This document shows, in pieces, positions 8,864 to 62,960 of a DNA stretch of 64,000 nucleotides; position 1 is the stretch's first letter, and each line of letters begins with the position of its first letter. This stretch comes from Solwaraspora sp. WMMD1047 (GTDB lineage: Bacteria > Actinomycetota > Actinomycetes > Mycobacteriales > Micromonosporaceae): assembly GCF_029626155.1 (NCBI RefSeq), contig NZ_JARUBL010000001.1, positions 7,880,816 through 7,944,815 on the forward strand, in the 5' to 3' direction. The notes under the pieces were generated by a model that was given only the letters and a program-made list of their open reading frames with translations, had not been told where the DNA came from and ran no database searches. Both the position numbers and the translations under genes were made by a program.

Positions 8864-8958
8864 ACCGGAGTTACGGCCGACCGGCCCGATCGGTTGCATC
8901 CCGTGCCCGAGTATCGGGGCTCATGTTTCCGGGTGCGGGTCGGACCTACCCTGGCGGG

Positions 8959-9387
8959 ATGAGGACGTCGACGGATGTCGCTCCCCGCTGGGCCGCCCCG
9001 ACCGTCGCGCTGCTGACCCTGGCTTGGCTCGCCGCGACGCTGGCACTGCTCTGGGCGGCGTTCGCGATCGGGATGGAGGCCTGGTCGGACCAGCACTCCA
9101 ACAACGGCGACCGGGCCGAGGAGCTGGGCCGGCGCGGTTCGTGGGCCGGGCTACGGCTGATCGCGGTCGCCCTCGGTGGTCCGCTGCTGATCGCCGCGGT
9201 GGCGTTCGCCGGCCGGCTGGTCAAGACCGGTGTGGCCTACCTGTTCCTGGCGATCCTGGTCGGCGCGCTGACCGCGCCACTGGCGATGAACTCGGCCCGG
9301 AACCTGGCCCCGGAGCCGCCGCCGCCGTCCGCTCCCGGCGGGTGCCAGGAGCACAGCGGCGGCGACACCCGCTGCCCGGGCGGCTGA
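8959..9387 (+). CDS. Small integral membrane protein, function unknown
   Basis: A 142-residue protein with three hydrophobic helices: TVALLTLAWLAATLALLWAA (residues 15-34), LRLIAVALGGPLLIAAVAFA (about 65-85) and VAYLFLAILVGALTAPLAM (about 92-112). A Pro-rich C-terminal tail ends in two Cys (GGCQEHSGGDTRCPGG). I do not recognise the family. A TACCCT -10 box ends 6 nt before the ATG at 8959, and there is no Shine-Dalgarno, so the gene is probably transcribed leaderless. It is divergent from the sigma gene and convergent with the acyl-CoA dehydrogenase, whose stop is 4 bp away. Confidence 0.6.
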   Translation: MRTSTDVAPRWAAPTVALLTLAWLAATLALLWAAFAIGMEAWSDQHSNNGDRAEELGRRGSWAGLRLIAVALGGPLLIAAVAFAGRLVKTGVAYLFLAILVGALTAPLAMNSARNLAPEPPPPSAPGGCQEHSGGDTRCPGG

Positions 9388-9391
9388 GCCG

Positions 9392-10540: not shown

Positions 10541-10571
10541 CGGATCCTCCATCGGGTTGCCGGCGCGGTGC

Positions 10572-47344: not shown

Positions 47345-47746
47345 CTACGACCGGGGTTCGGGCTGCTCGTCCTCGACGGCCGGCTCGACCGGCGGGAGAT
47401 CCCGCAGGTGGCGGTTGTTGCGCGGTTCCCGCTTGGTCTTCGAGTCGTTGAGGCGCCGGCGCAGATCGTCCCGGACGTCGTTGAGCGCCGCCTTCAGGTC
47501 CTCCTCGGTGGAGGTGGTGACGATCTTCGGTCGGCCGGCGACCCAGCACTCCAGGGTGACCTTCTGGCCCTTCGCCTCGCGGTCCTTGACCGACAGCTCC
47601 AGCTCGGTCCCGTCGACCGGGAAGCTGGCCAGCCGCGCGTCCAGGGTGGTGAACTGCTCGACGATCCAGTTCCGGTCGCCCTGCGAGAATCCGGCACCCA
47701 TCCGGAGGCAGTCCTCGACGGTGGCCGGGTTCGACCGGGCGCTCAT
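47345..47746 (-). CDS. HPF/RaiA-like ribosome-associated protein
   Basis: A 133-residue protein with the beta-alpha-beta-beta-beta-alpha pattern of ribosome hibernation factors: RNWIVEQFTTLDARLASFPV, VTLECWVAGRPKIVTTSTEE and DLKAALNDVRDDLRRRLNDS, followed by an acidic/basic tail. It lacks the long C-terminal dimerisation domain, so it is the short RaiA type. Such proteins block the 30S tRNA channel during stress or stationary phase. ATG at 47746 has GGGGAGGG 8 nt upstream. It lies downstream of the type VII-like operon with 144 bp between, room for its own promoter. Confidence 0.7.
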   Translation of the reverse strand: MSARSNPATVEDCLRMGAGFSQGDRNWIVEQFTTLDARLASFPVDGTELELSVKDREAKGQKVTLECWVAGRPKIVTTSTEEDLKAALNDVRDDLRRRLNDSKTKREPRNNRHLRDLPPVEPAVEDEQPEPRS

Positions 47747-47890: not shown

Positions 47891-49276
47891 TCACGGTGCG
47901 GGCTGGGCGCCGCTGGTCGGCGGATGCCAGAACGGGTCGTCGGTGTCGTCTGCCATCCGGGCCCGGGCCGCCCGTCCCGCCAACCGCGCCCGGCGGCGGG
48001 CCAGCACTCCGGTCAGCGCCCGCACCGGCGGTTGCAGGAGGAATCCCATGATCAGGAAGAGCACCAGCCCGGCCCCGACCCAGGTGAGCACCCGGCTCAG
48101 CGTCGCCAGCCGGTTGGCCGGCTGCTCGGGGGCTGCGGCGTTCACCCCCACTCCGCCGGGTAGCGGTGTCGTCACCGCGGCCACCGGGCTCACCAGTCCG
48201 GCGTCGACGGTGGCCCGGACCTGCCGGGTCACGTCGGCAGCGGGCAGCCCGGGGTGGGCCGAGCGGACCAGCGCCGCGGTGCCGGCCACGAAGGCGGCAG
48301 CATATTCCGCACCGGTGCCGGACCGGCCGATCGTCGCCACATCCACACCGGGGGCCAGCAGGTCCACGGCACCGTCGGGGTAGCTCTCGGCGGCCTGCTG
48401 GTCGGCGTCCGCCGCGCCGACCCGGAGCAGACCGTCGGCGGGGGCCGCCGCGACCGTGGCGGGCAGCACCACCACCACGTCCCGGGCGATCGCATCGTCG
48501 ATCGCGGCCCGGACGTCGCGGTCGGTGGCGTCGACCGCGACCCCCAGCAGCAGCACGTCGGCACCGGTCCCGGTCGCCACGGTGATGGACCTCGCGGCGA
48601 TCGGGTTGGGCAGCCGGCTGGCGCCGGCCCGGATCGGCACGATCCGGGCACCGGGCGCAATGCCGAAGTTGTCGTCGTCGCCGGCGACGATGCCGGCCAG
48701 GGCGGTGCCGGCGCCCTCGCATCCGATGTCACCGCGGCCGGTGCCGGCCAGCACGTCGGCCCCGGTGGCGACCCGGTTGGCCAACTCGGGGGCGGAGCCG
48801 TTCACGCCGGCCGCGATCACCGCCACCTTCACGCCCGAGCCGTCCGCGGCCGTCCAGGCCCGGTCGGGGGTGAGCAGGGTCTGCCCCCAGGCGGCCTCGG
48901 CCGGTACTGCGCCGTTCGCACCGCAGTCCGACGAGCTGGCGCCGACCGTCGGCAGCGGGCCGTGGTTCAGCTCGGCGCCGACCGCGTCCCAGGGCAGCAC
49001 GAGGTGCCAGCCGGCGCGGAGGTTGGCCGGGTCCGACAGCCGGCGGCCGTCGGGCTGCACCCGGCCGGTGTTGAGGTCGAGGATCTCCCCGGCCCGGTCC
49101 GCGTCGCCCAGGAAGCGGTCCGCGATCGACCAGAGGTTCTCCCGGGGGTTCGTCACCGTGTAGTAGTAGCCGACCGCCGGGGCCACCGCGGCGACCGCCG
49201 GAGCCGGGACCGTCCCGGTGACGGCCACCGCGAACGTCGCCGCAAGTGCCAGGTCGCGAAGCCTCATCCTCACCAC
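47891..49276 (-). CDS. mycP: LysM-mycosin fusion, catalytic triad lost (pseudoprotease)
   Basis: A 461-residue S8-type mycosin with a signal peptide (residues 1-30). A LysM-like domain follows (about 37-97, YYYTVTNPRENLWSIADRFL), then a subtilisin fold and a C-terminal membrane helix (about 396-414) with a basic cytoplasmic tail. The three catalytic positions are changed: Asp to Ala155 (VAVIAAGV for VIDTGV), His to Ala189 (GCEGAGTALAG for GHGT), Ser to Glu324 (GAEYAAAFVAG for GTSxAA). The fold motifs around them remain. Mycosins (MycP) are essential parts of mycobacterial type VII secretion. This version must act structurally, perhaps anchoring the machine to peptidoglycan via LysM (inference). 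It overlaps the upstream gene by 7 bp. Confidence 0.82.
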   Translation of the reverse strand: MVRMRLRDLALAATFAVAVTGTVPAPAVAAVAPAVGYYYTVTNPRENLWSIADRFLGDADRAGEILDLNTGRVQPDGRRLSDPANLRAGWHLVLPWDAVGAELNHGPLPTVGASSSDCGANGAVPAEAAWGQTLLTPDRAWTAADGSGVKVAVIAAGVNGSAPELANRVATGADVLAGTGRGDIGCEGAGTALAGIVAGDDDNFGIAPGARIVPIRAGASRLPNPIAARSITVATGTGADVLLLGVAVDATDRDVRAAIDDAIARDVVVVLPATVAAAPADGLLRVGAADADQQAAESYPDGAVDLLAPGVDVATIGRSGTGAEYAAAFVAGTAALVRSAHPGLPAADVTRQVRATVDAGLVSPVAAVTTPLPGGVGVNAAAPEQPANRLATLSRVLTWVGAGLVLFLIMGFLLQPPVRALTGVLARRRARLAGRAARARMADDTDDPFWHPPTSGAQPAP

Positions 49277-50886
49277 TCCGACCTCTCGACCAACGCCCAG
49301 TCGTGGTCGTCGTTGGCCAGGCAGGGAACGAACTGGAGCCGGGCCTCGGGGCCGCCGGTACCCGAGCCGGGGACCTCAAGGCACATGTCGGTGACCGTGT
49401 TGCGCAGCCAGTAGTACTGGAACCCGCCGGAGCTGCGCTTCGGCTCCAGCCGGAAGTACTGGTTGTCCTGGTCGAAGCAGCCGGTGGTGTTGAGCTGGGT
49501 CTCGTTCGCCACCGTCCCGACCCCGGGCGGGTCGATGCAGAAGCCGTCGTCGACGTTGCGGATCCAGTAGAGCTGGTAGCCCTGGCTGTCCTTGGCCCGC
49601 GGCACGAACGACCACTCCTGGTTGTCCTCGGTGTTCTTCGCGCAGGTGAACTGGTTCACCGGCCCGTCACGCTTACCGGCGCCGGTGCCGGGGATGTCGA
49701 CACAGAGCTTGGTACGCAGGTTGAGGATGAAGTACGGACCGTAGCTGCGACCCGAGCCGTCCGCCTGGGCCGCCTTCACCGGGGGCTGATTGTCGCGCAC
49801 CTTGGTGGTGTTCCCGCCGGTCGGCTTCGCCGCGGGCGACGACGGGGCGGGCTTCGATGCCGGGGGCTTGGGCAGTTGCAGGCGGGGGTCCTTGGCGTAC
49901 TCGGTCTGGGCCTTCTTCACGGCCTCGACGAGCGGGGTCTGCGCTGCCCGGTCGCCCCGGGTGAACGCGGCGAGGGCCGGGCCGTACTCGCCGCCGGCCT
50001 GGTCGATCAGCTTGCACATCGCGCGGCCGAGGGCCGCGATCGCCACCGCCGGCTCCCACGGGGTACGGCGGGGAGCGACGTCGGCGTGGGTGCGCCAGAC
50101 GCCGGGCAGGAACTGGGCGATGCCCTGCTCGCCGGCGGGTCCGAGCCGGTTCGGGTCGAAGCCGGAGGTCACCATGATCTGCGCGGCGATCCGGGCCGGC
50201 GGCAGTTCGGGGCAGCGCTTCCCGGCGGTGACGATCTGCGGCAGGTACACCTCGGGCACCAGGACCACCGGGTCGCCGGTGGGGTACCCGGCGCTGGCGG
50301 GCGGCGAGGCCGGCAGCCCGCCGAAGGCCGGCTGGAGGGCGTACCAGGCGGCGTAGCGGTCGACGGTCTCCACGTAGTCGGCGGCGCTCTCCGGCACCGC
50401 GCCGGCCGCGATCACCTGGTCGATGCCGAGCCGGTGCGCCGCCAGCGCGACCCGCCACGGATCCTCCTCGATGTTCAGCGCCCGGGACTGGCCGACGAGC
50501 TGGCACATGGCGTGCGCGAGCGCCGTGATGGCGTCCTCGCGGTCGGTCGGGACGGCGTCCGGCGAGGGCGCGTACTTCTGCCACTGCTCGGGGGTGAGCG
50601 CGGCGACCCCGACCGCGCCGCCGTCGCGCATCTCCGGCACCGGCTGGTCGTCGAAGTTCGAGGCGACCATGACCTGGCCGGCCAGCCGGGCGGGGGTGAG
50701 CGTCGGGCAGGACGCCGCGGCGCGGACGAGAATGCGTACGTCGGTGGCGCTGAGCCGGTTGCCTTCCAGCGGTTCGGCGGCGTTGGCCGCCTGCCGGGCC
50801 GCGAAGGCGGCGGCTCCGATCAGGATGATCAGCGACAGGCCGGCGCCCAGGATCACCGGCCGGCGGACGTTGGGCATCCGGAACAT
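49270..50886 (-). CDS. Membrane-anchored tandem SLT-like/ricin B-lectin protein
   Basis: A 538-residue protein. One N-terminal membrane anchor (about 9-32) is followed by two SLT-type lysozyme-like domains: RLAGQVMVASNFDDQPVPEM (about 55-135) and RIAAQIMVTSGFDPNRLGPA (about 218-300). A Pro/Ala/Lys linker and a ricin-type beta-trefoil complete it (about 382-539; FILNLRTKLCVDIPGTGAGK, DNQYFRLEPK). In SLT enzymes the catalytic Glu precedes SxF; here it is Ala76 in domain one and Thr241 in domain two (numbered from a TTG one codon further upstream). Both domains therefore probably bind but do not cut peptidoglycan. ATG at 50886 shares its A with the preceding TGA (TGATG), with GGGAG 7 nt upstream. 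Confidence 0.75.
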   Translation of the reverse strand: MFRMPNVRRPVILGAGLSLIILIGAAAFAARQAANAAEPLEGNRLSATDVRILVRAAASCPTLTPARLAGQVMVASNFDDQPVPEMRDGGAVGVAALTPEQWQKYAPSPDAVPTDREDAITALAHAMCQLVGQSRALNIEEDPWRVALAAHRLGIDQVIAAGAVPESAADYVETVDRYAAWYALQPAFGGLPASPPASAGYPTGDPVVLVPEVYLPQIVTAGKRCPELPPARIAAQIMVTSGFDPNRLGPAGEQGIAQFLPGVWRTHADVAPRRTPWEPAVAIAALGRAMCKLIDQAGGEYGPALAAFTRGDRAAQTPLVEAVKKAQTEYAKDPRLQLPKPPASKPAPSSPAAKPTGGNTTKVRDNQPPVKAAQADGSGRSYGPYFILNLRTKLCVDIPGTGAGKRDGPVNQFTCAKNTEDNQEWSFVPRAKDSQGYQLYWIRNVDDGFCIDPPGVGTVANETQLNTTGCFDQDNQYFRLEPKRSSGGFQYYWLRNTVTDMCLEVPGSGTGGPEARLQFVPCLANDDHDWALVERSEW

Positions 50887-51527
50887 CAACTGGCTCCCTG
50901 CGCGAGCAACTCGTCCTCGGTCGGCACGTCCACCTGTTCACCCCAGCGCAGGGTGCCGACGATCATGTCGAAGAGCAGGACGATCGCCTGCACCGGTTCG
51001 GCGTCGACATCGCCGTCGGTGAGCACGGTGAAGGTCAGCAGTCCCCAGACGCCGGGCACGTCGGGGTTGGCCACGTAGTAGCTGACCCGTACCGTCGGGG
51101 CCTTGCGCCTGATCCGGTCGCTGTCGATGACCGCGTAGATCCGCACCGCGGACGCGCCACCGATCTCCAGGTACTCCCCGTTCGGGCCGGCGTCGGCGAG
51201 GATCGACGCCAGCAGCTTCTCCGGGTCGGTGGTCTCGTCGCTGTCCTCGAGCACCGACATGATCATCGAGCCGGGCAGTCGCTTGCCGTTGAACTCCCGC
51301 AGCGGCAGCAGCACCGCCCGGGCGCCGTTGCTCCCGGCCTCGTCGGTCGCTTCGGTGAGTTCCTTGCGCAGCACCCGCCGCCACGGCCCGGCCTTGTCGC
51401 GCGGCAGGGTGTCCGGCAGGTGCTGCCGGATGATCTCCTCGATGATCCGCGCCCGGACCCGGGACATCTCGGGGGTGGTCGGGATCTGCACCCAGCCACC
51501 GGGCACCACGAGCTGAAAGTCGATCAT
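50886..51527 (-). CDS. Type VII operon protein of unknown function (213 aa)
   Basis: A 213-residue soluble protein beginning MIDFQLVVPGGWVQIPTTPE. A helical stretch (RARIIEEIIRQHLPDTLPRD) and beta-rich parts follow (VRVSYYVANPDVPGVWGLLT; AIVLLFDMIVGTLRWGEQVD). I do not recognise the family. The opening P-GW pattern and final beta-helix order resemble the LpqN/Mog1-PsbP fold, a weak suggestion only. It overlaps both neighbours by 3-4 bp (ATGA and TGATG), so expression is coupled to the secretion genes. No signal peptide, so it probably acts in the cytoplasm, for example as a chaperone like EspG in mycobacteria (inference). Confidence 0.65.
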   Translation of the reverse strand: MIDFQLVVPGGWVQIPTTPEMSRVRARIIEEIIRQHLPDTLPRDKAGPWRRVLRKELTEATDEAGSNGARAVLLPLREFNGKRLPGSMIMSVLEDSDETTDPEKLLASILADAGPNGEYLEIGGASAVRIYAVIDSDRIRRKAPTVRVSYYVANPDVPGVWGLLTFTVLTDGDVDAEPVQAIVLLFDMIVGTLRWGEQVDVPTEDELLAQGAS

Positions 51528-52261
51528 GACTGGTCCCTCCCGCCGGTCGGGGCCGCGAATCGCAGCGGCGCGGCGTCCCCGGTCGGCGCGGCCATGCTGT
51601 CGGCGGCGATCAGGTGCATCAGCGCCTCCACACCGAAGCCGATCAGCGCCATCTGGTCCATCCCGAAGACCCGGGTACGCAGCAGCACGTCGACGTCGGT
51701 GCCGGGCGCCGCCGCGGTCGCCGGCACCTCCAGCCGCAACGCCGCGTCGACCCGGCCGTAGACGCCCTCCTCCTCGGAGGAGGCCAGCGCGAACACCCGC
51801 AGTCCGTCGCCGCGGTCGGTGGCCACGTAGTCGATGACCGGCTCCCGGACGTCCCCGCCGAGCCCGTCGGCGCCGACCTCGGCCATCAGGTAGGCCGGGT
51901 CGTCCGCGCGCGGCTCGCGGAACTCGGCCGTGACGAGCAACGGCATCCAGCGCAGGTCGCCGCCGACGAACGCCGCACCCCAGAAGAGCCGGACGTACGC
52001 GGGCAGCCCGGCGGCGCGTTCCAGCAGGCTGCGCGCCACCGCCTGCCCCATCTCGCCGATCGCGAACGGGAACTCCTCCGGCTCCTCGGCCGGCCATTCC
52101 GCCCGGGCGGCGGCCACCTTCTCGCCCGCCCACTCGTCGAGCAGGGCCGACACCCGCGCGGTCCAGTCCGTCACCGTCTGCGCGTCGCTGTCCGGGGCGG
52201 GCACCCAGTTCCAGAACCAGGAGACCTCGGGGACCACCGACGGGCCGGATCGTGACGTCAT
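51524..52261 (-). CDS. Type VII operon protein of unknown function (245 aa)
   Basis: A 245-residue acidic soluble protein: SWFWNWVPAPDSDAQTVTDW at the start, a helical middle part (AIGEMGQAVARSLLERAAGL), then beta-strands (GGDLRWMPLLVTAEFREPRA; REPVIDYVATDRGDGLRVFA) and a final helix (MALIGFGVEALMHLIAADSM). No known domain is recognised. The order of secondary structures and the hydrophobic closing helix recall the 213-residue neighbour, so the two may be distant paralogues. It overlaps both neighbouring genes by 4 bp (ATGA). Confidence 0.65.
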   Translation of the reverse strand: MTSRSGPSVVPEVSWFWNWVPAPDSDAQTVTDWTARVSALLDEWAGEKVAAARAEWPAEEPEEFPFAIGEMGQAVARSLLERAAGLPAYVRLFWGAAFVGGDLRWMPLLVTAEFREPRADDPAYLMAEVGADGLGGDVREPVIDYVATDRGDGLRVFALASSEEEGVYGRVDAALRLEVPATAAAPGTDVDVLLRTRVFGMDQMALIGFGVEALMHLIAADSMAAPTGDAAPLRFAAPTGGRDQS

Positions 52262-53475
52262 CCTCGGTTCCACGCATCGGTGTTCTGGCCGCCGGGCCAG
52301 ACCAGGCCGGCGGCGAGGGCGAAGAAGATGTTCGGCACGGTCCAGGCCAGCCAGGTGAAGTTCATCCCGCGGGTGGCGCCGCCGAGGATTCCGGTCAGGT
52401 CGCCAAGGGTGCTGATCCCCCGCGCCCCGTCCCACCACCACTTGCCCAGGGCACCGAAGTTGCCGTGCCGGAAGGCGCCCCACCACTTCTCCAGGCCGGT
52501 CATGAAGGTCGTCCACTCGGTACGGAAGAAGCCGGGCTTGGCGATCAGGGCGGGGACGTCGGCCATGTTGGAGAGCGGGATGACCACCCCACCGCCCGGG
52601 CCGAGGGTGCCGAAGTTGAACCGGAGCGAGCCGAGGATCTTCATGGTGCTGGCGAGCTTGCTGCCGAACTTCAGGATGGCCACCCCGATCCCGGCGAGGC
52701 CGAGCCCGACCGCGCCGAGGATGACGTCGACCACGTCGCCCTCGCCGTGGGCCAGCAGCACGCTGTCGGCTATCAGGGCCACCGCGCCGGCGGCGATGCC
52801 TAAGAAGAGCAGGGCGTTCACGCCAGGGATGAGGAAGGCGAGCGCGGTCAGGACCATCGCGATGATGCCGAAGATCTTGCTGATCCACTTGAAGGCTTCG
52901 TTGATCTTGTCTTTGAGGGTGTCGGTCAGCCCGTCGTCGTACCGGTCGCAGTTGACCGCGTCGCCGAGCCGCTTGCCGGCCACGTCCAGCGCGTCCAGGG
53001 CGGCGGTCAGGCGGTTCTTCGCCGCCGTCATCGCCGACTCCGCCTCGCTCTGTGCCTTGGACTTGTCGGCGCCCTTCTGCTGCTCCTCGGGCGGGATCGT
53101 GCCGTCCGGCCCCGGCACCGGGTCGGGCAGGGCGTTCGCCCGGGTCTGCGCCTGCGACGCGTCCTCCCGGTCGCTGCGGGCCCCGGCGACCTCGGACTTG
53201 GCGTGCTGCAGGTCGGGCTCGTACCGGCGGATCTCGACGGCCGCGTCCTCGTACCGCACCGACGCCTTGCTCAGGCCGTCCTTGATCTCCTCGGCGTCCT
53301 TCTTGAGCGGCTCGACCCACTTGCCCCGCAGGCCATCGCTGCCGGCGTCCACGATCTTGGCGAGCTTGGCGATCGCGTCGTCGATGGTGGTGGAGATGTC
53401 CGCGTACCGGCGCTGGGCGTCGTGGATCTTCGCCGGGTCGGCGTCGTCGAGGAGCTTGAGCCGGAAGGCGGTCAC
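52258..53475 (-). CDS. 405-residue helical/membrane protein, candidate type VII substrate or pore
   Basis: Residues 1-180 are long alpha-helices with heptad-like charge patterns (AKIHDAQRRYADISTTIDDA; LRGKWVEPLKKDAEEIKDGL), like the helical N-terminal domains of WXG/LXG-type exported proteins. Residues about 185-285 hold three hydrophobic segments (IFGIIAMVLTALAFLIPGVN; ALLFLGIAAGAVALIADSVL; VIL GAVGLGLAGIGVAI region). The C-terminal 110 residues are Trp/Gly/Phe-rich (EKWWGAFRHGNFGALGKWWW) and end in another hydrophobic stretch. I do not recognise a toxin domain. GTG at 53475 has GGAGGAG 7 nt upstream and overlaps the upstream stop by 4 bp. Confidence 0.65.
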   Translation of the reverse strand: MTAFRLKLLDDADPAKIHDAQRRYADISTTIDDAIAKLAKIVDAGSDGLRGKWVEPLKKDAEEIKDGLSKASVRYEDAAVEIRRYEPDLQHAKSEVAGARSDREDASQAQTRANALPDPVPGPDGTIPPEEQQKGADKSKAQSEAESAMTAAKNRLTAALDALDVAGKRLGDAVNCDRYDDGLTDTLKDKINEAFKWISKIFGIIAMVLTALAFLIPGVNALLFLGIAAGAVALIADSVLLAHGEGDVVDVILGAVGLGLAGIGVAILKFGSKLASTMKILGSLRFNFGTLGPGGGVVIPLSNMADVPALIAKPGFFRTEWTTFMTGLEKWWGAFRHGNFGALGKWWWDGARGISTLGDLTGILGGATRGMNFTWLAWTVPNIFFALAAGLVWPGGQNTDAWNRG

Positions 53476-53753
53476 GGCTTCTCCTCCAGGCTCGCCGCCA
53501 GCTGGCGCTCCCCCTCGGCCCAGTTCTCCTCGGCCGACTTGACCTCGTCGCGGAACTTCTCCATTGACTCGACCATCTTTTTCCGGTTGATCCGCCAGTT
53601 GTGGGCGAAGTCGCCCATCGACAGGTTGGCGTTGTGCTGGCCCCAGTGGCCCTTGAACTCGTTCTGGAACTTGGTCGCCGAGTTGAACTGCTCGATCAGC
53701 GCGTTGAGATCGTCGACCAGACCGCCCAGGTCCCTGACCACGATGTCGGCCAT
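53472..53753 (-). CDS. Small helical WXG100-like protein
   Basis: A 93-residue all-helical protein. Helix 1 is VRDLGGLVDDLNALIEQFNS; the turn region is FKGHWGQHNANLSMGDFAHN; helix 2 is WRINRKKMVESMEKFRDEVK, continuing SAEENWAEGERQLAASLEEK. Length and helix-turn-helix form match the WXG100 superfamily, although the WxG itself is replaced by HWG/NWR near the turn. It could pair with the WXG100-like protein encoded at 58166. ATG at 53753 shares its A with the EccC-like gene's stop (TGATG). Confidence 0.7.
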   Translation of the reverse strand: MADIVVRDLGGLVDDLNALIEQFNSATKFQNEFKGHWGQHNANLSMGDFAHNWRINRKKMVESMEKFRDEVKSAEENWAEGERQLAASLEEKP

Positions 53754-56700
53754 CACACCACCGTTCCCGCTCGTCGGATGTTCGGCTCCGCCGCCAGCAG
53801 CGGAATCTGGACGGTCTGCAACTCCCCGTCGCCCAGGTGCACCCGGGCGACACCGGGCACCACCCGGTCGACCAGCCCGGCCCGGGTCAGCCGCACCCCG
53901 ACCAGGTCACCGGCGCCGAGCGTCGGCGGGGAGAGCAGCGCGCCGCGCCGGTTCTTCTTGATCTCGACCTGCCAGCCGGAGAAGCCCATCGCCACCGAGG
54001 CGATCTCGCCGGCGATGACCACCGCCCGCCGGTTCCCGGCCGCGCCGCGGACCAGTTGGCGCAGCCAGTCCCGGCACGACACGTCCCGCCACGCCTCGGC
54101 GTCGTCGACAAGCAGCGCGACCGGACCCTCGCCCGGGTCGACCAGGGCGGCGAACTCCTCCTCGGTCGGGTTGTCGCCGGTGATGACCCCGCGCACACCC
54201 GGCCGGCCGGCCAGGTCGCGCAGCGGTGACCGCATCGGCGCACCGATCACCAGCTCGGTCCCGGACCGCAGCAGCGACTCCGCCATCACGCCGAGCGCGG
54301 TGCTGCGCCCGGACCGGGACGGGCCGGCGATCAGGAAGGTCGGCTGGTCGTTGAGCAGGTCCGCGCCGACCGGCTCCAGTTCGTCCCCGCCGACCCCGAG
54401 CAACGCCCACATCGGATCGGGTACGCCGACGATCTCCCACGCCTGGTCGAGCGTCAGCTGGCTGGGCAGGACCGCGATCCGGGCGGGGCGCCGCGCCTTC
54501 GGCACCGCCGCCTCCCGGTCGGTGAGCGTGCCGGCGAGCGCGTGCATGGCGGCCACCTGGGCCGGGCCGGCCGGGTCCTCGGCCACCAGCGCGACCTGCA
54601 CCTCGATTCCGCTGATGGCGCGGTAGCCGCGCCCCGGCGGCAGGCTCTCCGGGATCTTGCGCGGGTTGAGCCCGGCCAGCGTCGCGTCGCTGCGGTCGGA
54701 GAGCCGCAGCACGAGCTTCTCCTCGCAGAGCGAACTCATCCGGCCGCTGAGCAGGCTGTGGTCGCCAGCCACGATCAGGTGCACCCCCGCGCTGGCGCCC
54801 TCCCGCATCAGGATGTGCACCAGGTCGGTGAGCGCCCCGCTGTCGTGCTCGCTGAGGGTCCCCATGAACCCCTCCCAGCGGTCGAGCAGCAGCAGGATGT
54901 GCGGCAGCCGGTCGGCGGCGGGGGTGGCCGCCCGCTGCTCGGTCAGGTCCGCGAACCCGCCCTCCCCGAGCAGCCGCTGGCGGCGCTGCACCTCGGCGTG
55001 CAGCCGGTGCAGCAGGCGGCTGGCCCGCTCCACGTCGGTGCGCTGCGCGACCGCGCCGCAGTGCGGGAACTTCGTCATCGGCAGCAACGCGCCGTTGCCG
55101 CAGTCCAGCCCGTACAGGTGCAGGTCGGCCACGCTCGCGGCGGCGGCCGCCGCCGCGGCGATCGTCCGCAGCGCCTGCGACCGGCCCGACCGGGGCGCAC
55201 CGACGATGTGCAGGTGGCCGAAGGTGGAGAGGTCGATCGTCATCGGCACCTGCCGCTGGCTGCGCGGCAGGTCCTGCACGGCCCAGACGAAGGAGGGCTC
55301 ACCCCGGGCGTCGCGGCGCGGCTCGGCGGTCAACTCCAGCACCGACGCGGTCGGCAACGGCGGCAGCCAGGGCCGGCGCTGCGCCGGAATGCCGAGCATG
55401 TCGTTCGTCTGCCGGATCGCCTCGACGAGCACCGACAGGTCGGTGGCCTCGTCGGTCTCGGCGGCGGCCCGGGGCCGCTGCGGCAATGGGCGGCCCAGGT
55501 CCAGCCAGCCGACCTGGTGCAGGAACGGCGCCGCCACGGCCAGCGCCGGGTCCCGCTGCGGTCGGCGGCCGCCGACCCGGCCGGTCTGGAACGGGATGAG
55601 CGAGCTGTGCCCGAGCCGGGCGTACCCGCGTCCCGGATGGGCGGCGGAGATGCTGGCCGCCTCCCGGGCGTCGATCACGTCGGCGCTCTCGCCCTGGTCG
55701 GTCACCCGCAACGCGATCCGCAGGTTGGTGTTCGCGCGGATCTCCGCGGAGACCACGCCGGACGGGCGCTGGGTGGCCAGAATCAGGTGGATGCCGAGCG
55801 ACCGGCCGCGCTGCGCCACGTTCACCAGACCGGTGACGAAGTCCGGCAGTTCCCGCGCCATCGACGCGAACTCGTCGATGACGATCAGCAGTCGGGGAAT
55901 CGGCGCCGGCACCGGCCGCCGGCTGGCGAAGTCGAGGTAGTCCTCCAGGTCCTTCGCGCCGACCGAGGCGAGCAGGTGTTCGCGGTGGGTCAGCTCCGCC
56001 CCCAGCGAGGTGAGCGCCCGCTCCACCAGGTGGGTGTCGAGGTCGGTGACCATCCCGACGGTGTGCGGCAGGTCGACGCAGTCCTTGAAGGCGGCGCCGC
56101 CCTTGTAGTCGACGAGGACGAAGTTCATCGCGTCGGGCCGGTTCGCGACCGCGAGCGAGGCCACCAGCGTCTGCAGGAACTCCGACTTGCCGGAGCCGGT
56201 GGTGCCCGCGACCAGGCCGTGCGGTCCATGGTGGACGAGATCGAGGGCAAACGGCCCGTCCAGGGTGTAGCCGATCACCGCCCGGGTGCTGCGCGGCGAC
56301 GCGGCCCAGCGGGCGTTGATGCCGGCGGCCGACGGCTCCTCCAGACCCAGCACCTCGAGCAGCCGGGCGGCCGGCGGCAGGGCAGCCTCGCCGTGGGTGT
56401 CGCTCACGTCCCGGACCGGGGCCAGCCGCCGCCCGACGGTGGTGAACCACTCGTCGCTCACCTCGTCGACCCGGACGTCGTCGATCTGCGCGGCCCGCTG
56501 CTGACGCATCGTGGTGGGCAGGCCGGCACCGCCGACCACCACGGTCGTGCACTCCTCCGGCAGGGTCCGCTCGTCGGAGTCGACACAGATGAAGTAGACG
56601 CCGACCGCCGGACCGCCGAGCAGGATCGAGACGACGCCGGGCAGCGCCCGCAGCCGCCGGGCGCCGTCCAGCACGACCACCACGTCGGGGTCGGCGAACG

Positions 56701-58153
56701 CCACCCCGGAGCCGACGTTGAGGCGGGCCTGCCGGCGGGTGTCGATCAGCTCGATCAGCTCCGCGATCCGGCGGGCGATGGTCTCGGCGTCCGTGCCGAG
56801 CAGGGTGAGGGTCTGCTGACCGAGCGACGGCCGGGTGTGCGGCAGCCAGGCCGTCCACTCCCACAACGCCTCGCCCGCCGGGTCGGTGAGCACATACAGC
56901 TGCAGGTCGCGGGGGCTCTGCATGACGGCGAGCTGCCCGGTCATCCAGCGCGCCAGGCGACGGGGCCAGTCGTCGCGGCCGGCGACACCGACGACGCCCG
57001 CCTGCACGATCGAGAACGCCACCGGGACATCGGGCTGCTGCCGGGGCGTACGCCGGTCGGCGCCGGCCTCGTCGACGACGATCGCGCTCGGCAGATCGGC
57101 GAGGCCGACCCGGACCACCAGGTGGTCCGGGTCTGTGCGGCGGCGTTCCCAGAGCCGGGCGCGCGGGCCGGTCGCGACGACCAGCAGCTCGGCCGGGTCG
57201 GGGGCGCCGACCCGGGCGTCGTGGCGTTCCAGGACCAGCGCCTCGGCGATGTCCTCCTCGATCGCGGCCACCCGCCTGCGGTGCTCGGCCAGCTGGCTGC
57301 GGTAGCTGCGGTTGCCCTGCCTCCGGCTGGTCCACCAGTTGCCCAGCACCATCAGCGGCGACATCGCCGCGAACATCAGGTACAGCGGGTTGCGCAGCAC
57401 CAGGGACATCACGATGCCGAACGCCGCCGGCAGGGTGGCCGTCAGCCACGGCAGCCCGAACGAACTCGGGGCCTTCGGCTCCGCCGGGATGCGGAACTTG
57501 TCCGGCCGGACCGGCGGAAGCAGCCGCGGCGGCCGGTTGTAGTCGAGGTACTCGCGCTCCGGCGACGGCTCGACCATCGCGTCCGGGCAGCGCACCGGGT
57601 GCGCCTCCAGCACGGTGGCGCCGGCCGCGATCAGCGCGGTCTCCGGCCAGTCGACCTCCGTACCGGAAAGCTCCTCGCGGTCGAGCTGCAGACCGCTGTC
57701 GTCGACGGCGCGGACGTACACCTCCGCGTCGAAGGTCACCCGGACGACCGCGGCGACCGGCGCCAGACCGGCCAGCCGGACGGCGCAGCCGTCGGCCTGG
57801 CCGATCCGGTGTTCGCCCGGACCCAGCGACCAGAGCCGGCCGGCGTCGGCGCCGGCCACCGCCCGGATCGTCACCAGGCCACCGACCGTGTACGGCGCCG
57901 GTCCCGGCCCGCCGATCCAGAGCACCGACCCGTCGTACATCCCACTCGCCTGAAGCGACCGGTCGAGATCGAGCGGGCGGTCGTCGAGATGGATGAGGCC
58001 GGTGTCCAGGGTGGCGCCGTGCGCGAGGTACGACGGGTCGAAGCTGTCCAGCAGATTCTTGACGATGTCCCGGACCGGTGTGGCGGGGTCGGCGTCAATC
58101 ACCACGTCGGCCGACCACGCCGGCTTGGCCGCCAGGGTGATCAGCATGCGCAC
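53753..58153 (-). CDS. eccC: FtsK/EssC-type type VII secretion ATPase
   Basis: A 1466-residue ATPase. Residues 1-80 look ubiquitin-like, followed by an FHA-like domain (SLGPGEHRIGQADGCAVRLA, about 110-185). The linker YNRPPRLLPPVRPDKFRIPA, as in firmicute EssC, precedes two membrane helices (about 235-275). Three FtsK/SpoIIIE domains follow. Only the first has an intact Walker A (GTTGSGKS, Lys656) with Walker B LLIVIDEFA. The second and third read GAPRSGRS (Arg991) and GPSRSGRS (Arg1283). This order (FHA, two TM, three ATPase modules) is EssC-like rather than classic actinobacterial EccCa/EccCb. The GTG at 58153 is the longest start; ATG 58147 is an alternative. Confidence 0.9.
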   Translation of the reverse strand: MRMLITLAAKPAWSADVVIDADPATPVRDIVKNLLDSFDPSYLAHGATLDTGLIHLDDRPLDLDRSLQASGMYDGSVLWIGGPGPAPYTVGGLVTIRAVAGADAGRLWSLGPGEHRIGQADGCAVRLAGLAPVAAVVRVTFDAEVYVRAVDDSGLQLDREELSGTEVDWPETALIAAGATVLEAHPVRCPDAMVEPSPEREYLDYNRPPRLLPPVRPDKFRIPAEPKAPSSFGLPWLTATLPAAFGIVMSLVLRNPLYLMFAAMSPLMVLGNWWTSRRQGNRSYRSQLAEHRRRVAAIEEDIAEALVLERHDARVGAPDPAELLVVATGPRARLWERRRTDPDHLVVRVGLADLPSAIVVDEAGADRRTPRQQPDVPVAFSIVQAGVVGVAGRDDWPRRLARWMTGQLAVMQSPRDLQLYVLTDPAGEALWEWTAWLPHTRPSLGQQTLTLLGTDAETIARRIAELIELIDTRRQARLNVGSGVAFADPDVVVVLDGARRLRALPGVVSILLGGPAVGVYFICVDSDERTLPEECTTVVVGGAGLPTTMRQQRAAQIDDVRVDEVSDEWFTTVGRRLAPVRDVSDTHGEAALPPAARLLEVLGLEEPSAAGINARWAASPRSTRAVIGYTLDGPFALDLVHHGPHGLVAGTTGSGKSEFLQTLVASLAVANRPDAMNFVLVDYKGGAAFKDCVDLPHTVGMVTDLDTHLVERALTSLGAELTHREHLLASVGAKDLEDYLDFASRRPVPAPIPRLLIVIDEFASMARELPDFVTGLVNVAQRGRSLGIHLILATQRPSGVVSAEIRANTNLRIALRVTDQGESADVIDAREAASISAAHPGRGYARLGHSSLIPFQTGRVGGRRPQRDPALAVAAPFLHQVGWLDLGRPLPQRPRAAAETDEATDLSVLVEAIRQTNDMLGIPAQRRPWLPPLPTASVLELTAEPRRDARGEPSFVWAVQDLPRSQRQVPMTIDLSTFGHLHIVGAPRSGRSQALRTIAAAAAAAASVADLHLYGLDCGNGALLPMTKFPHCGAVAQRTDVERASRLLHRLHAEVQRRQRLLGEGGFADLTEQRAATPAADRLPHILLLLDRWEGFMGTLSEHDSGALTDLVHILMREGASAGVHLIVAGDHSLLSGRMSSLCEEKLVLRLSDRSDATLAGLNPRKIPESLPPGRGYRAISGIEVQVALVAEDPAGPAQVAAMHALAGTLTDREAAVPKARRPARIAVLPSQLTLDQAWEIVGVPDPMWALLGVGGDELEPVGADLLNDQPTFLIAGPSRSGRSTALGVMAESLLRSGTELVIGAPMRSPLRDLAGRPGVRGVITGDNPTEEEFAALVDPGEGPVALLVDDAEAWRDVSCRDWLRQLVRGAAGNRRAVVIAGEIASVAMGFSGWQVEIKKNRRGALLSPPTLGAGDLVGVRLTRAGLVDRVVPGVARVHLGDGELQTVQIPLLAAEPNIRRAGTVV

Positions 58154-58165
58154 GGCGTACCCCGG

Positions 58166-58462
58166 TTACTTGTTCAGCGAGCCGGCGAGCTGGGTGTCCA
58201 TGTCGCGCAGCGCCTCGACCGCCTTGTCGAGCCACTCGGAGAGCAGGTCGAGGTTCTCCATCACCTGGTTCGCCGCGGTGATGAACTCGGTGTGCACCTC
58301 GTCGAACCGGCCGGACGCCTGGTCGGTGACGAAGCCGGACGTGGTCAGGGTGTCCACGATCTGCTTGCACTCGGTGAGCCGGGCGTCGATCTCGTTCTTG
58401 TTGTTGCGCATCCGGGTCGCGCTGTCCGACATCTCCGTGTAGGTGATGTTGAGGTTCGCCAT
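58166..58462 (-). CDS. WXG100-family (ESAT-6-like) protein with altered motif
   Basis: A 98-residue helical hairpin protein: helix 1 NLNITYTEMSDSATRMRNNK to KQIVDTLTTSG, a turn at GFVTDQASGRFDEVHTEF, helix 2 AANQVMENLDLLSEWLDKAV and the tail RDMDTQLAGSLNK. The WxG turn reads FVT here (Trp to Phe, Gly to Thr), but size, position just before the ATPase gene and helix pattern fit the family. Such proteins are exported as dimers and are needed for secretion. ATG at 58462 with GGGA 8 nt upstream; first gene of the operon. Confidence 0.85.
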   Translation of the reverse strand: MANLNITYTEMSDSATRMRNNKNEIDARLTECKQIVDTLTTSGFVTDQASGRFDEVHTEFITAANQVMENLDLLSEWLDKAVEALRDMDTQLAGSLNK

Positions 58463-58669: not shown

Positions 58670-59428
58670 GTGAGCTGGCTGGGACGTGCCACCGTGGACC
58701 GCCGGCCGGCCGACCAGGGCGGCCACGAGCGCTCCGGAGCGTGGACGGTCGACCGGGCGGTCCGTGTGCTGGCCACCGGCTGCGCCGAGGCGCAGCGCCC
58801 GGTGCCCGCGGTCGGCGCCCTGGTCCTGGGCCCCGAGTCGCTGTCGCTGCGGCTGACCACCCCGGACGAGACGCCGCCGCCGGGGTGGACCGCGGAACGG
58901 CACGGCCGCGGCTGGCGGACGACGCTGCGGTGGGTGGCCGGCGCGGCGGTCGACGAACGACTGCCGGACCCGTTTCCGCTGCTGGTCTCGCTCGGCGTGA
59001 TCGACGAAGGGCGGCTGCTGCTCAACCTCGGCCAGGCGGCCGGGATCATCGGCGTGCAGGGCGACACCGAGCTGGCCCGCGGCCTGGTCCGCTCCTGGTC
59101 CCGGCGGCTCACCACCAGCCCGTGGTCGGCCGGCACCCGGGTGATCCGGGTGGGCTTCGCACCCGACCCCGACTTCGCCGGCGTGGACGTGTCCCGGCTG
59201 GTCGAGGTGGCGCCGGTCCTGGACGACCCGGCGGGCGGCATCCTCCTCTTCGCCGACCGACCCGCCGGCCGGGACCAGTACCAGGTCGACCGCCTGCTCG
59301 CCGAGCCGGTCCGCCGCTGGACGGTGGTGGCGGTCGACGTAGACGCCGCGACCTGGCGGTTCACCGTCGGCGTGGACGGTGCCGTCGACACCGGACTCTT
59401 CACGGAACCGGTGCGTCTCCGCTCGTAG
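58670..59428 (+). CDS. Hypothetical protein divergent from the type VII operon
   Basis: About 252 residues, no signal peptide or membrane helix. It begins MSWLGRATVDRRPADQGGHE from the GTG at 58670, which has GGAGGG 8 nt upstream. Visible parts are RAVRVLATGCAEAQRPVPAV, LPLLVSLGVIDEGRLLLNLG-like segments, and a C-terminal beta region (ILLFADRPAGRDQYQVDRLL; TWRFTVGVDGAVDTGLFTEP). I do not recognise the family. Its divergent position and proximity to the LuxR gene suggest it belongs to the same module, for example as a regulator-linked accessory protein (inference). Confidence 0.6.
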   Translation: MSWLGRATVDRRPADQGGHERSGAWTVDRAVRVLATGCAEAQRPVPAVGALVLGPESLSLRLTTPDETPPPGWTAERHGRGWRTTLRWVAGAAVDERLPDPFPLLVSLGVIDEGRLLLNLGQAAGIIGVQGDTELARGLVRSWSRRLTTSPWSAGTRVIRVGFAPDPDFAGVDVSRLVEVAPVLDDPAGGILLFADRPAGRDQYQVDRLLAEPVRRWTVVAVDVDAATWRFTVGVDGAVDTGLFTEPVRLRS

Positions 59429-59487: not shown

Positions 59488-60033
59488 ATGACTACGGCTT
59501 CCGTGGTGCCGACGATGGCTTCCGTGGCGCCCGCCGCGACCGCCGGTCGGCTGCGGATCGCGATCTCCAGTCCGGAGATCCTGGCCCGCATCCGTCACGA
59601 GTTCGCGAGCAAGGGCCTGGCCGTCGAGATCGACGGCCTGCCCTCGGTCGAGGTGGTCGTCGTCCCGGGGACCGGCGCGGCTCCCGGCACGAGCGCGCTC
59701 GCCGAGGCTTTGAACGGACTGGCCGGGCCGCACACCCGGCAGCGCGACCCGGCCACCGCCCGCTACCGGCTGGCGTTGATCCCGCGCGACCGCCGGCAAC
59801 CGGCCGAACAGCCGCGCCCCGGACCGGACGACTGCCGGTCGCTGTCACCGCGGGAGGCCGAGGTGATGGACTCGATCTGCCGCGGCATGGGCAACGCCGA
59901 CATCGCCGTCCTGCTGAAGGTCCGGCAGAAGACCGTGAAGAACCACGTGAACCGCATCTTCGCGAAGCTCGGCGCGCGCAACCGGGTCGAGGCGGTCCTG
60001 ATCTGGCAGCACGCCCGCGCGGGGTCCGCCTAG
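59488..60033 (+). CDS. LuxR-family HTH regulator
   Basis: A 181-residue protein. The N-terminal half resembles a truncated receiver or sensor (LRIAISSPEILARIRHEFAS; LAVEIDGLPSVEVVVVPGTG), without the phospho-acceptor Asp pattern. The C-terminus is a GerE/LuxR HTH: SLSPREAEVMDSICRGMGNA, then DIAVLLKVRQKTVKNHVNRI and FAKLGARNRVEAVLIW. It may regulate the type VII-like operon. The TAG stop shares a CTAG with the stop of the convergent regulator gene. Confidence 0.8.
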   Translation: MTTASVVPTMASVAPAATAGRLRIAISSPEILARIRHEFASKGLAVEIDGLPSVEVVVVPGTGAAPGTSALAEALNGLAGPHTRQRDPATARYRLALIPRDRRQPAEQPRPGPDDCRSLSPREAEVMDSICRGMGNADIAVLLKVRQKTVKNHVNRIFAKLGARNRVEAVLIWQHARAGSA

Positions 60034-62813: not shown

Positions 62814-62960
62814 CGAGTCTCTTCCCCCGGTTCCGCACGGGCCGTCCATATCGACCGGCTTTGCGGCCCAGCGTACTCCCAGCCGGTGACCCGGCCGTAC
62901 CGGCACCGTCTCGGAGGGTCAGTCCGGACCGGTGGTCCCGGTCTTGACGATCGAGCGAGT

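Follow-up and report, generated by a model that had tools for sequence, protein, structure and literature searches.

A divergent type VII-like secretion cluster without EccB, EccD or EccE at its locus in Solwaraspora sp. WMMD1047

The window analysed here, a stretch of 64,000 nucleotides from Solwaraspora sp. WMMD1047 (NZ_JARUBL010000001.1, positions 7,880,816 to 7,944,815), contains eight minus-strand genes at 47891-58462 (Table 1). All eight, which had been proposed in a sequence-only reading of this DNA, are supported by codon-usage gene calling and by their translations. With the gene starts chosen here, a 12-bp gap separates the WXG100 gene from the ATPase gene, the genes from ATPase through SLT-ricin overlap by 1, 4, 4, 4 and 1 bp, and a 2-bp gap precedes the mycosin gene, which would instead overlap its neighbour by 7 bp if the GTG at 49276 were the start. 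The overlaps of 3-7 bp read previously from the ATPase onward were thus roughly right.

Table 1. Features of the cluster and its flanks, with positions in the window.
Feature	Position	Strand	Basis
WXG100-family protein, 98 aa	58166..58462	-	PF06013, 47.3 bits, above cut-off
Triple FtsK/EccC-type ATPase, ~1466 aa	53753..58153	-	FtsK_SpoIIIE and TIGR03928/03924/03925 matches
wxg2, 93 aa, a second small helical protein resembling WXG100	53472..53753	-	Profiles built in this analysis; no Pfam family above cut-off
405-aa protein, helical with hydrophobic segments	52258..53475	-	Hydropathy, alignment of 12
245-aa soluble protein without known family	51524..52261	-	Same place in 11/11 named core loci
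213-aa soluble protein, predicted PsbP/Mog1 fold	50886..51527	-	Structure model, fold search
SLT-ricin protein, 538 aa, N-terminally anchored, accessory	49270..50886	-	Pfam, residue alignment
LysM-mycosin, LysM-like domain and mycosin-like subtilase fold, accessory	47891..49267	-	Pfam/NCBIfam, hydropathy, alignment
LysM-like segment within LysM-mycosin	48950..49180	-	Alignment; Pfam LysM 18.2 bits, below cut-off
274 protein, divergent core gene (ORF open from 58604)	58694..59428	+	Predicted P-loop-less FtsK/EccC-like domain
LuxR-type regulator (PF00196), possibly linked	59488..60033	+	Homologue in 4/11 named core loci, one partial
BTAD/NB-ARC/TPR (AfsR-like) regulator, probably linked	60030..62906	-	Homologue within fetched locus in 8/11 named core loci

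The conserved unit comprises seven genes, those for the WXG100 protein, the ATPase, wxg2, the 405-, 245- and 213-residue proteins (hereafter 405, 245 and 213) and 274. The last of these lies just outside the eight genes, and was missed by the earlier statement, in which the established machinery is reduced to the ATPase and a mycosin-like protein. Thirteen named loci were collected with a 213 profile, so that the presence of 213 in them is given by construction, which is not the case for the other six core genes. The core is found in 11 of the 13, at 43-88% local protein identity, in Actinoplanes, Micromonospora, Streptomyces, Kitasatospora and Streptacidiphilus, and the gene order, for which a survey of relatives had been suggested, is kept. 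The SLT-ricin and LysM-mycosin genes adjoin the ATPase only in the window and in one of the 11 named core loci; they are accessory and stand outside the core, to which they had previously been assigned. A Curtobacterium plasmid, belonging to another order, carries six of the seven core genes in recognisable form, arranged WXG-wxg2-405-(211 aa)-213-274-ATPase; its ATPase is just 49% identical. All genes compared have a pN/pS below 1, with values of 0.64-0.97 for wxg2, 405, 245 and 213 that indicate weak constraint. Given the recurrence of the core in 11 of 13 loci, the pN/pS values below 1 and the presence of six of the seven genes on a plasmid of another order, the cluster is not a chance assembly.

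In 121 genomes of the family, 18 of 19 places matching the 213 profile lie within ~6 kb of such an ATPase, as do 22 of 24 strong matches of the 274 profile (E below 1e-26); this proximity was judged by eye, with one 213 and one 274 place checked separately. Loci of the L041, L061, L076 and L077 type encode large proteins for which membrane segments are predicted, and the genes shown include no homologue of 213; at two loci inside the 274 group (L059 and L060), the genes shown include one for a kinase and none for 274. Some relatives stand beside an annotated T7SS-secreted protein.

The ATPase matches FtsK_SpoIIIE in Pfam (201 bits) and, below their cut-offs, the NCBIfam models for EssC (TIGR03928, 556 bits against a cut-off of 778), EccCa (403 bits) and EccCb (331 bits); EccC and YukB are among its PDB profile matches. 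It is 68-82% identical to the ATPases of 11 relatives, and in sequence comparison its branch is separate from those of T7SSa and T7SSb. The previous label of ‘EssC-type’ is not supported, as identity is ~26% to two T7SSb EssC proteins against ~29-31% to four T7SSa EccC proteins of the same genome. Residues 11-80 form a YukD/ubiquitin-like domain (26.4 bits, just below the cut-off of 27; E 1.2e-5), followed at residues ~90-190 by an FHA-like stretch judged by eye only. The Walker A lysine is kept in the first of the three ATPase domains only (12 of 12 clade-A rows).

The WXG100 protein, 68-88% identical across all 11 named core loci, by eye reads S-G-F where W-x-G is expected. Profiles of wxg2 cross-match WXG100 rows, a result to be read in the light of the merging of these profiles during iteration, and the protein is a candidate substrate or targeting partner. 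No Pfam or NCBIfam family is matched above cut-off by 405, 245 or 213, and hydropathy reveals no membrane helices in 213 or 245. The N-terminal part of 405 is helical and WXG/LXG-like; hydrophobic segments follow at 201-219 and 249-267, forming a hairpin that is glycine-rich by eye in the alignment. 405 is among the two core proteins with the lowest conservation; within clade A its conservation extends as far as the C-terminus. The two clade-B 405-like proteins scanned carry a PF21725 T7SS_signal domain and, at the C-terminus, a PF15644 toxin domain, in every case above cut-off. 405 is a candidate exported substrate.

The structure model of 213, which is of middling confidence (pLDDT 66.5, pTM 0.59), predicts a PsbP/Mog1 fold closest to the Eag chaperones of type VI secretion. 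EagT6 (Z 9.4), SciW (Z 8.6) and, between these values, PA0094 are matched by the model, and the top Foldseek match is the SciW-Rhs1 TM complex (E 4.7e-4); the fold list further includes Tsi3, an immunity protein (Z 6.0), along with LpqN, DcrB and PsbP. EagT6 and SciW shield the transmembrane helices of T6SS effectors (PMC7773334). The likeness of 213 to these proteins lies in the predicted fold and in a gene position near that of a hairpin protein. Unlike them, it has no DUF1795 sequence match (0 of 24 members of the family), and whilst Eag proteins serve the T6SS, binding of a hairpin by 213 is only proposed. Homologues of 213 accompany proteins with quite different C-termini, and in two Actinoplanes 213 is fused via a helix to SLT-ricin. 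As a shared fold shows no function, a chaperone role does not follow from it; that 213 might be the chaperone of the hairpin-bearing 405 is put forward tentatively, with rather less than an even chance.

For 274, the model (pLDDT 79.1, pTM 0.73) predicts an FtsK/EccC-like fold without a P-loop. A chain of the ESX-5 complex is matched at Z 10.1 and FtsK at Z 9.6, and the fit of FtsK, TcpA and RecA-type proteins is almost as good as that of the ESX-5 chain (Z 8-10). Sequence profiles tie 274 to the ATPase not at all in one comparison and weakly in another. Thus 274 resembles the ATPase domains of EccC and FtsK in predicted fold, but differs from them in the absence of the Walker A P-loop (22 of 22 rows) and in being linked by a membrane helix, in relatives, to LysM or ricin. 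A homologue is present in all 11 named core loci, one truncated by a contig end. The architecture is SP-LysM-TM-274 in both Actinoplanes core loci and all six clade-B loci, 274-TM-ricin in seven of eight Streptomycetaceae loci (the eighth is truncated by a contig end) and TM-274 in Curtobacterium. In the five LysM or ricin rows checked, the charges flanking the helix place 274 inside and the wall domain outside. The LysM-like segment of LysM-mycosin also occurs on membrane-anchored forms of 274. A 274-like domain is also present in a Tad-pilus locus. Because it is elsewhere joined via a membrane helix to LysM or a ricin lectin, 274 is proposed as a wall-tethered stator standing in for EccB, EccD and EccE, a role for which the chances appear evenly balanced.

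Wall-binding parts, LysM and ricin lectin, are present as had been suspected. In the SLT-ricin protein, the ricin lectin exceeds its Pfam cut-off and SLT (PF01464) falls below it. The catalytic Glu, the position of which we take to be set by the ESGF motif, is replaced by A in the first of two SLT-like repeats and by T in the second in four distinct genomes; a single-domain SLT relative (L081_11) has E, by eye, at the repeat-1 position. LysM-mycosin matches subtilase (PF00082) above cut-off and mycosin (TIGR03921) at 122.7 against a cut-off of 278.75 bits, its LysM profile matches a PDB LysM protein (E 1.3e-5), and hydropathy indicates a membrane helix at its C-terminus. The Asp/His/Ser triad reads A/A/E in the window and G/S/E in the three other distinct genomes, while three mycosins of the window's genome keep D/H/S. 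Judged by these residues, both proteins look catalytically dead, and a role as enzymes is not supported. In mycobacteria, secretion does not require the protease activity of MycP1, while MycP stabilises the complex (PMC5082899). Two Actinoplanes keep 213-SLT-ricin and the mycosin with no ATPase above 35% identity, so this module can exist without the motor.

Pfam and NCBIfam models of EccB, EccD, EccE, EssA and EssB found nothing on the eight proteins, apart from the YukD-like part, in agreement with the earlier description of a T7SS-like cluster lacking EccB, EccD and EccE. Our own EccB and EccD profiles gave no match in any of the 13 named loci, nor among the genes of the window from position 44000 onwards. 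Among the proteins of the locus itself there was no family match to EsaA, EssA, EssB or a separate EsaB, nor to a kinase in Pfam, and a kinase profile of our own likewise gave no match, whether in the window or among the 13 named loci. The cluster very probably encodes a secretion system of the T7SS type, and it is equally probable, from its sequences, that this is a subtype distinct from T7SSa, T7SSb and T7SSd as described, T7SSc and T7SSe-j being only partly compared.

The explanation that we favour, and consider fairly probable as a whole, is a distinct T7SS subtype with 274 as a wall-tethered stator and 213 as a chaperone. The triple ATPase would be the motor, exporting the WXG100 protein(s) together with 405, in which a WXG/LXG-like helical part would be paired with a membrane-spanning hairpin. 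The Eag-like 213 would keep this hairpin in solution within the cytosol until export; wxg2 would serve as targeting partner. 274 would dock on the cytosolic side of the motor in place of EccB, EccD and EccE, tied in most relatives by one membrane helix to a wall-binding domain; in Micromonospora, where 274 is free, LysM-mycosin and SLT-ricin would grip the wall as clamps rather than enzymes. A bolder version is rather doubtful: a T7SS in which an Eag-like chaperone serves hairpin substrates, a nucleotide-binding-dead copy of the motor fold, tethered by exchangeable LysM or lectin domains, replaces EccB/D/E, a pseudo-mycosin and pseudo-transglycosylase provide the grip in Micromonospora, and the same tethered domain serves an actinobacterial Tad pilus. 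The Eag fold has been called diagnostic of type VI secretion by a recent survey.

Should the cluster instead be an add-on motor and substrate set, it would borrow the EccB, EccD and EccE of a T7SSa encoded elsewhere in the genome. Actinomycetes with T7SSa are expected to have EccB, and the search for EccB elsewhere, suggested previously, gave a divided answer. The window's genome has four EccB and two EccE places, all away from the locus, and among genomes holding a relative 12 of 13 have EccB, and 12 of 13 EccE above cut-off, so help in trans is possible. However, the nearest EccB is ~0.96 Mb distant, the ATPase is remote in sequence from the T7SSa EccC proteins of its own genome, the cluster has a conserved accessory set of its own, and the draft genome of Streptomyces sp. 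CBMA29 carries the operon with no EccB match and no EccE above cut-off; borrowing is improbable. Slightly less so, but still unlikely, is a toxin-delivery device in which 405 acts on membranes as an antibacterial toxin, with 213, 245 or both as immunity proteins. The low conservation and glycine-rich hairpin of 405, the toxin domain of the clade-B relatives and the fold of Tsi3 fit such a device, whereas polymorphic toxins would not be conserved to the C-terminus, the partners of 213 homologues vary, Eag chaperones fit the fold of 213 better than Tsi3 does, and neither 213 nor 245 has a membrane helix, even though the membrane would be the toxin's site of action.

An FtsK-like complex that works on the envelope or on DNA, with the WXG proteins as regulators and no protein export, would suit the FtsK type of the ATPase, the wall-binding parts and the 274-like domain at a Tad-pilus locus. 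Against it, the best matches of the ATPase are EccC/EssC models, a WXG100 partner is present, and relatives have T7SS_signal substrates or an adjoining annotated T7SS-secreted protein, leaving it very improbable. Least probable of all is that the window operon is a decaying remnant. This would explain the lost triad and Glu, and degenerate mycosins occur at two T7SSa loci of the window's genome as well; yet the residues are changed in all four distinct genomes, where the proteins are still 57-67% identical to those of the window and their frames open, and against HM5-17, in which the motor is 82% conserved, their pN/pS is 0.56-0.61.

If the favoured subtype is real, a system that keeps the motor and WXG100 while seemingly swapping the whole scaffold could show what EccB, EccD and EccE are needed for. 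Its testable parts would be a pseudo-ATPase that stands free, a chaperone resembling Eag and wall clamps made of dead enzymes; such a chaperone in a T7SS, if confirmed, bears on the means by which T7SS substrates with a hairpin are kept soluble until they are exported.

The T7SS classification of Garrett et al. 2024 (PMC11217815), in the portion relevant here, places only T7SSa and T7SSd in the Actinomycetota, and the cluster, earlier proposed as undescribed, is unlike T7SSa, T7SSb and T7SSd as set out there. With T7SSa (ESX) it shares an EccC-type triple ATPase, WXG100 and, in the window, a mycosin-like protein; it differs in its locus without EccB, EccD and EccE, in its more distant ATPase on a branch of its own, in the ubiquitin-like domain at the ATPase N-terminus, in the lost mycosin triad and in the absence of an adjacent mycosin from 10 of 11 named core loci. 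Like T7SSb (Ess/Yuk, Bacillota), it has WXG100, a YukD-like domain, the FHA-like stretch (by eye) and, in relatives, large WXG/LXG-type proteins, but the locus has no EssA or EssB, the ATPase is distant from EssC and the YukD-like part is fused to it. The partner types of T7SSc and T7SSe-j (kinases, phosphatases, vWA, Tad genes and others) have no Pfam match in the operon. Some kinase-bearing relatives (L042-L044, L058-L060, L068) may be nearer T7SSd. T7SSd, from Olsenella and Bifidobacterium, is described in that portion of the classification as having the kinase TsdD, TsdH and a large Ig-like TsdI without a ubiquitin-like part; the cluster is like it in combining an ATPase, WXG100 and few partners with no EccB, EccD or EccE, and unlike it in having no kinase and in the presence of 274, 213 and the YukD-like domain.

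The eight genes of the operon, which encode a WXG100 protein, a triple FtsK/EccC-type ATPase, a second WXG-like protein (wxg2), three proteins named by their lengths in residues (405, 245 and 213), an SLT-ricin protein and a LysM-mycosin, are borne out as listed in the sequence-only reading: all are called by codon usage and all lie on the minus strand. From the ATPase gene through the SLT-ricin gene, neighbouring genes overlap by 1-4 bp, with gaps of 12 bp before the ATPase and 2 bp before the mycosin. The divergent core gene, 274, was missing from that list. The contig that carries the operon comprises 8144409 bases of an 8.16 Mb genome, and the window occupies its positions 7880816-7944815. 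PADLOC returned generic ATPase and subtilase matches and, for the WXG100 protein, two that were marginal, and nothing else. Inspection by eye of P0001 and P0003 revealed no YxxxD/E secretion motif.

Positions of the features discussed, in the window or on contig C1 of the host genome (G000)
Feature	Position	Strand	Reference
Eight-gene operon	47891-58462	-	window
274 gene	58694-59428	+	window
Gene for 133-aa protein	47345-47746	-	window
L015, locus with second non-T7SSa ATPase	6988000-7007000		G000:C1
L016, T7SSa locus	about 2012800		G000:C1
L017, EccB locus	6966658		G000:C1
L018, T7SSa locus	about 4498700		G000:C1
L019, T7SSa locus	383268		G000:C1
Gene for 1007-aa protein	8130-11153		L080
Same gene	about 6002130-6005153		G000:C1

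The operon is also present in Micromonospora sp. HM5-17 and Actinoplanes lutulentus, both of the same family. A pattern-based scan of a species-genome collection with the 213 profile, which is blind to relatives without either peptide pattern, gave 68 pattern matches, of which 13 were confirmed as named loci. In 11 of these 13, the core loci, the order WXG100-ATPase-wxg2-405-245-213 is kept, together with an opposed 274 homologue, which answers in the affirmative the question of conserved gene order raised from the sequence. The core loci belong to Streptomyces (four), Kitasatospora, Streptacidiphilus and Actinoplanes (two each) and Micromonospora (one). At L047 the contig end cuts the 274 gene, and the draft genome of Streptacidiphilus pinicola (L053) has a broken wxg2 frame. 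A BTAD/NB-ARC regulator homologue lies inside the fetched locus at 8 of the 11 core loci and a LuxR homologue at four, one of them partial; L054, where the match spans the DNA-binding part only, is left out of this count. The 133-aa protein encoded 144 bp past the mycosin bears a weak likeness to a ribosome hibernation factor (PF02482, 24.8 bits, cut-off 23.7), and no homologue of it was found in the named loci.

SLT-ricin and LysM-mycosin genes next to the core are a feature of two loci only, the window and, among the 11 core loci, that of Micromonospora HM5-17. At the remaining two named loci, in Actinoplanes philippinensis and A. xinjiangensis, a membrane helix links 213 to SLT-ricin in one fusion protein, the mycosin comes next, and an ATPase of more than 35% identity is absent from both genomes. 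A further arrangement, WXG-wxg2-405-211 aa-213-274-ATPase, is found on a 164-kb plasmid of Curtobacterium, with an ATPase 49% identical to that of the window; the 211-aa gene occupies the place of 245 and matched none of the profiles. A plasmid search with 213 returned one record only. On a Streptomyces atratus plasmid (NZ_CP108277, locus L079), homologues of LysM-TM-274, WXG100, the ATPase, 213 and wxg2 surround an annotated 2028-aa 'putative T7SS-secreted protein'.

Among 121 genomes of the family, close 213 homologues occur in four, and a wide 213 profile finds 19 places in 15 genomes. ATPase homologues at E<=1e-100 are found in 34 (at most four candidates scored in each) and the 274 profile matches in 44, with 24 places at E below 1e-26. 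When printed positions were compared by eye, an ATPase gene lay within about 6 kb of 18 of the 19 213-places and 22 of the 24 strong 274-places, one place of each kind being at a contig end and settled by reading the sequence. The places away from an ATPase are a 213-SLT-ricin fusion and the 274 genes of two genomes, G035 and G118; in G035 an SLT-ricin relative adjoins the 274 gene. Across 296 genomes of the phylum, with two candidates scored per genome, 41 have an ATPase match at E<=1e-80, some at the T7SSa level of 30-33%. Between the window and Micromonospora HM5-17, pN/pS rises from WXG (0.27), ATPase (0.35) and 274 (0.48) through mycosin-like (0.56), SLT-ricin (0.61) and 245 (0.64) to wxg2 (0.77), 213 (0.82) and 405 (0.88); as these are uncorrected proportions in GC-rich DNA, the high values are no sign of positive selection.

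The telling feature of 274 is its domain architecture. Both Actinoplanes core loci and all six clade-B loci, which are further relatives with longer 405-like proteins, encode a signal peptide-LysM-TM-274 protein. In seven of the eight Streptomycetaceae loci the order is 274-TM-ricin lectin, with PF00652 above cut-off in all seven, and a contig end cuts the eighth. Despite this reversed order, the two LysM and three ricin rows checked agree in topology: judged by the charges flanking the helix, 274 is inside and the wall-binding part outside. Curtobacterium and L015, the second system of the host genome, have TM-274 (by eye in L015), and in Micromonospora 274 is free-standing; there the mycosin-like protein bears the LysM part and the SLT protein the lectin. 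The name 'LysM-like' is used because the profile matches a PDB LysM protein (E 1.3e-5) and four of 12 members have below-cut-off Pfam matches. L034-L037 were considered as MycP and rejected, the BLAST match covering the LysM part only.

A model of 274 built from 11 sequences (pLDDT 79.1, pTM 0.73) best matches residues 125-399 of one chain in the ESX-5 pore complex (Z 10.1, rmsd 3.7, 162 aligned). This chain is taken as EccC5, the name under which the profile search lists the same entry. FtsK (Z 9.6), TcpA (9.2) and EccC3 (8.8) follow, with RecA-type proteins close, and the best Foldseek match is FtsK (E 3.5e-4). A P-loop is absent from all 22 rows of the 274 alignment. Comparison of the 274 and ATPase profiles gave no match, nor did a PDB sequence search with the 274 profile give a convincing one; when the comparison was split by domain, weak local matches appeared (p 0.004 and 0.0005), so that sequence profiles weakly suggest kinship between the two. 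About half of the weaker 274 matches lie in long frames, of roughly 1000 aa or more, and the two such frames read are in Tad-pilus-like loci. One of these loci, L080 of the host genome, whose Tad character is confirmed by TadE and T2SSE matches, encodes a protein of 1007 aa that combines LysM-like, membrane-helix and 274-like parts. The 274-type domain may be shared by two envelope machines.

The ATPase begins with a YukD-like part (26.4 bits, cut-off 27) and contains FtsK domains; the EssC and EccC models score strongly on it, yet below their cut-offs. Residues 90-190 look FHA-like by eye; no Pfam FHA match was obtained. Identity is about 29-31% to T7SSa EccC and 26% to T7SSb EssC, so the ATPase is not specially EssC-like and the earlier label 'EssC-type' has been dropped. 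In a 49-row tree its branch is separate from the four T7SSa EccC of the host genome, and in a 24-row tree it is separate from these and from two Bacillota EssC; the larger tree omits Micromonospora HM5-17, A. lutulentus and rows under 1250 aa (L038). In the 24-row tree the branch uniting the actinobacterial group is supported at 94/99, which is below the starred level, and there is a junction of long branches between the T7SSa and T7SSb rows. In all 12 rows of clade A, the close relatives of the operon, the Walker A lysine is present only in the first ATPase domain, with Arg in the other two.

At seven relative loci (L042-L044, L058-L060 and L068) a Ser/Thr kinase gene lies near the ATPase, with no 274 among the genes shown; the kinase profile was built from two Pfam-confirmed proteins (L042, L044), and the remaining kinase labels rest on this profile. 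In the annotation of these relative loci the WXG and wxg2 profiles, having merged during iteration, give labels that are inseparable. Two of the loci, L059 and L060, have retained homologues of 213 and 405 and are placed within the 274 group, and it is possible that the scaffold has there been swapped for a kinase. L076 has both a kinase label and a 274 gene; L064, L073 and L074, with no ATPase call, were left out. The ATPase of L015 is 47% identical to that of the window, and besides two WXG100-like genes the locus has one for a 337-aa protein and one for a large protein whose length is at least 1915 aa.

The 213 protein was modelled from 14 sequences (pLDDT 66.5, pTM 0.59). The model matches EagT6 (Z 9.4, rmsd 4.9, 128 aligned), PA0094 (9.1), SciW with an effector transmembrane domain (8.6) and LpqN (8.3), as well as DcrB, PsbP and Mog1; Foldseek ranks first the structure of SciW with the transmembrane domain of Rhs1 (E 4.7e-4). 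In the sections cited, Eag chaperones are described as keeping effector helices soluble by mimicking membrane-helix packing (PMC7773334), and PsbP/MOG1 domains are termed diagnostic of T6SS export (PMC12419801). None of 24 members of the 213 family matched DUF1795, the Eag family. Homologues of 213 usually adjoin wxg2, near a protein with membrane segments; L041, L061, L076 and L077 have such proteins but no 213 among the genes shown. The 405 protein has a helical start followed by two hydrophobic segments, with a C-terminus that is also conserved in clade A. Its clade-B homologues are 864-912 aa long, and the two scanned contain PF21725 and the toxin domain PF15644. From the modelled fold, the neighbourhood and the anatomy of its partners, it is hypothesized that 213 may act as a chaperone. 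PDB sequence searches with the 213, 405 and 245 profiles gave no convincing match, and the 213 and 245 profiles did not match each other; a second PsbP/Mog1-type protein in 245 was a by-eye impression and is not claimed.

At the Asp/His/Ser positions, A/A/E or G/S/E is read in the mycosin-like proteins from the window, from Micromonospora HM5-17 and from the two Actinoplanes, while three mycosins at other loci of the host genome retain D/H/S. At the T7SSa loci L016 and L018 of the host the mycosins are degenerate too (G/R/A and D/T/G), and catalytic loss is therefore not unique to this system. In the two SLT repeats, A and T stand where the ESGF motif places the catalytic Glu; a shorter SLT relative (L081_11) retains Glu at the first by eye. 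In mycobacteria, according to PMC5082899, secretion does not require the protease activity of MycP1, and mycosins stabilise the membrane complex, which by analogy would suit a structural role for the mycosin-like protein.

Profiles for the kinase, EccB and EccD gave no match across the 13 named loci, and it might be supposed that the operon borrows EccB, EccD and EccE in trans. In the host genome EccB is encoded at four places and EccE at two, all away from the operon. The sequence-only reading had counted co-conserved copies elsewhere against a minimal system; EccB is indeed encoded in 12 of the 13 genomes with a relative, and EccE above cut-off in 12 of 13, and the co-occurrence fails in Streptomyces sp. 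CBMA29, a draft genome that has neither by these criteria, although one ATPase match in it is at the T7SSa level (33%). Borrowing in trans is thus the less likely explanation. Elsewhere in the host genome, L017 has EccB with no EccC or EccD seen in its 18-kb stretch, and the 16 kb of L019 show EccC, EccD and a mycosin of T7SSa type but no EccB; the two may complement each other.

The operon is judged to be a new T7SS variant; that it is a conserved unit is well supported, and the mechanism proposed for it, as yet a prediction, is plausible. In the open-licence literature searched, neither a window-type operon nor a T7SS with an Eag-like chaperone was found described. According to the cited sections of Garrett et al. 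2024 (PMC11217815), in which T7SSc-j were defined, T7SSd of Olsenella and Bifidobacterium is the sole new subtype in Actinomycetota, and its hallmarks are the kinase TsdD, TsdH and TsdI, with no ubiquitin-like part. The operon described here differs on both counts, since it lacks a kinase and its ATPase includes a YukD-like domain.
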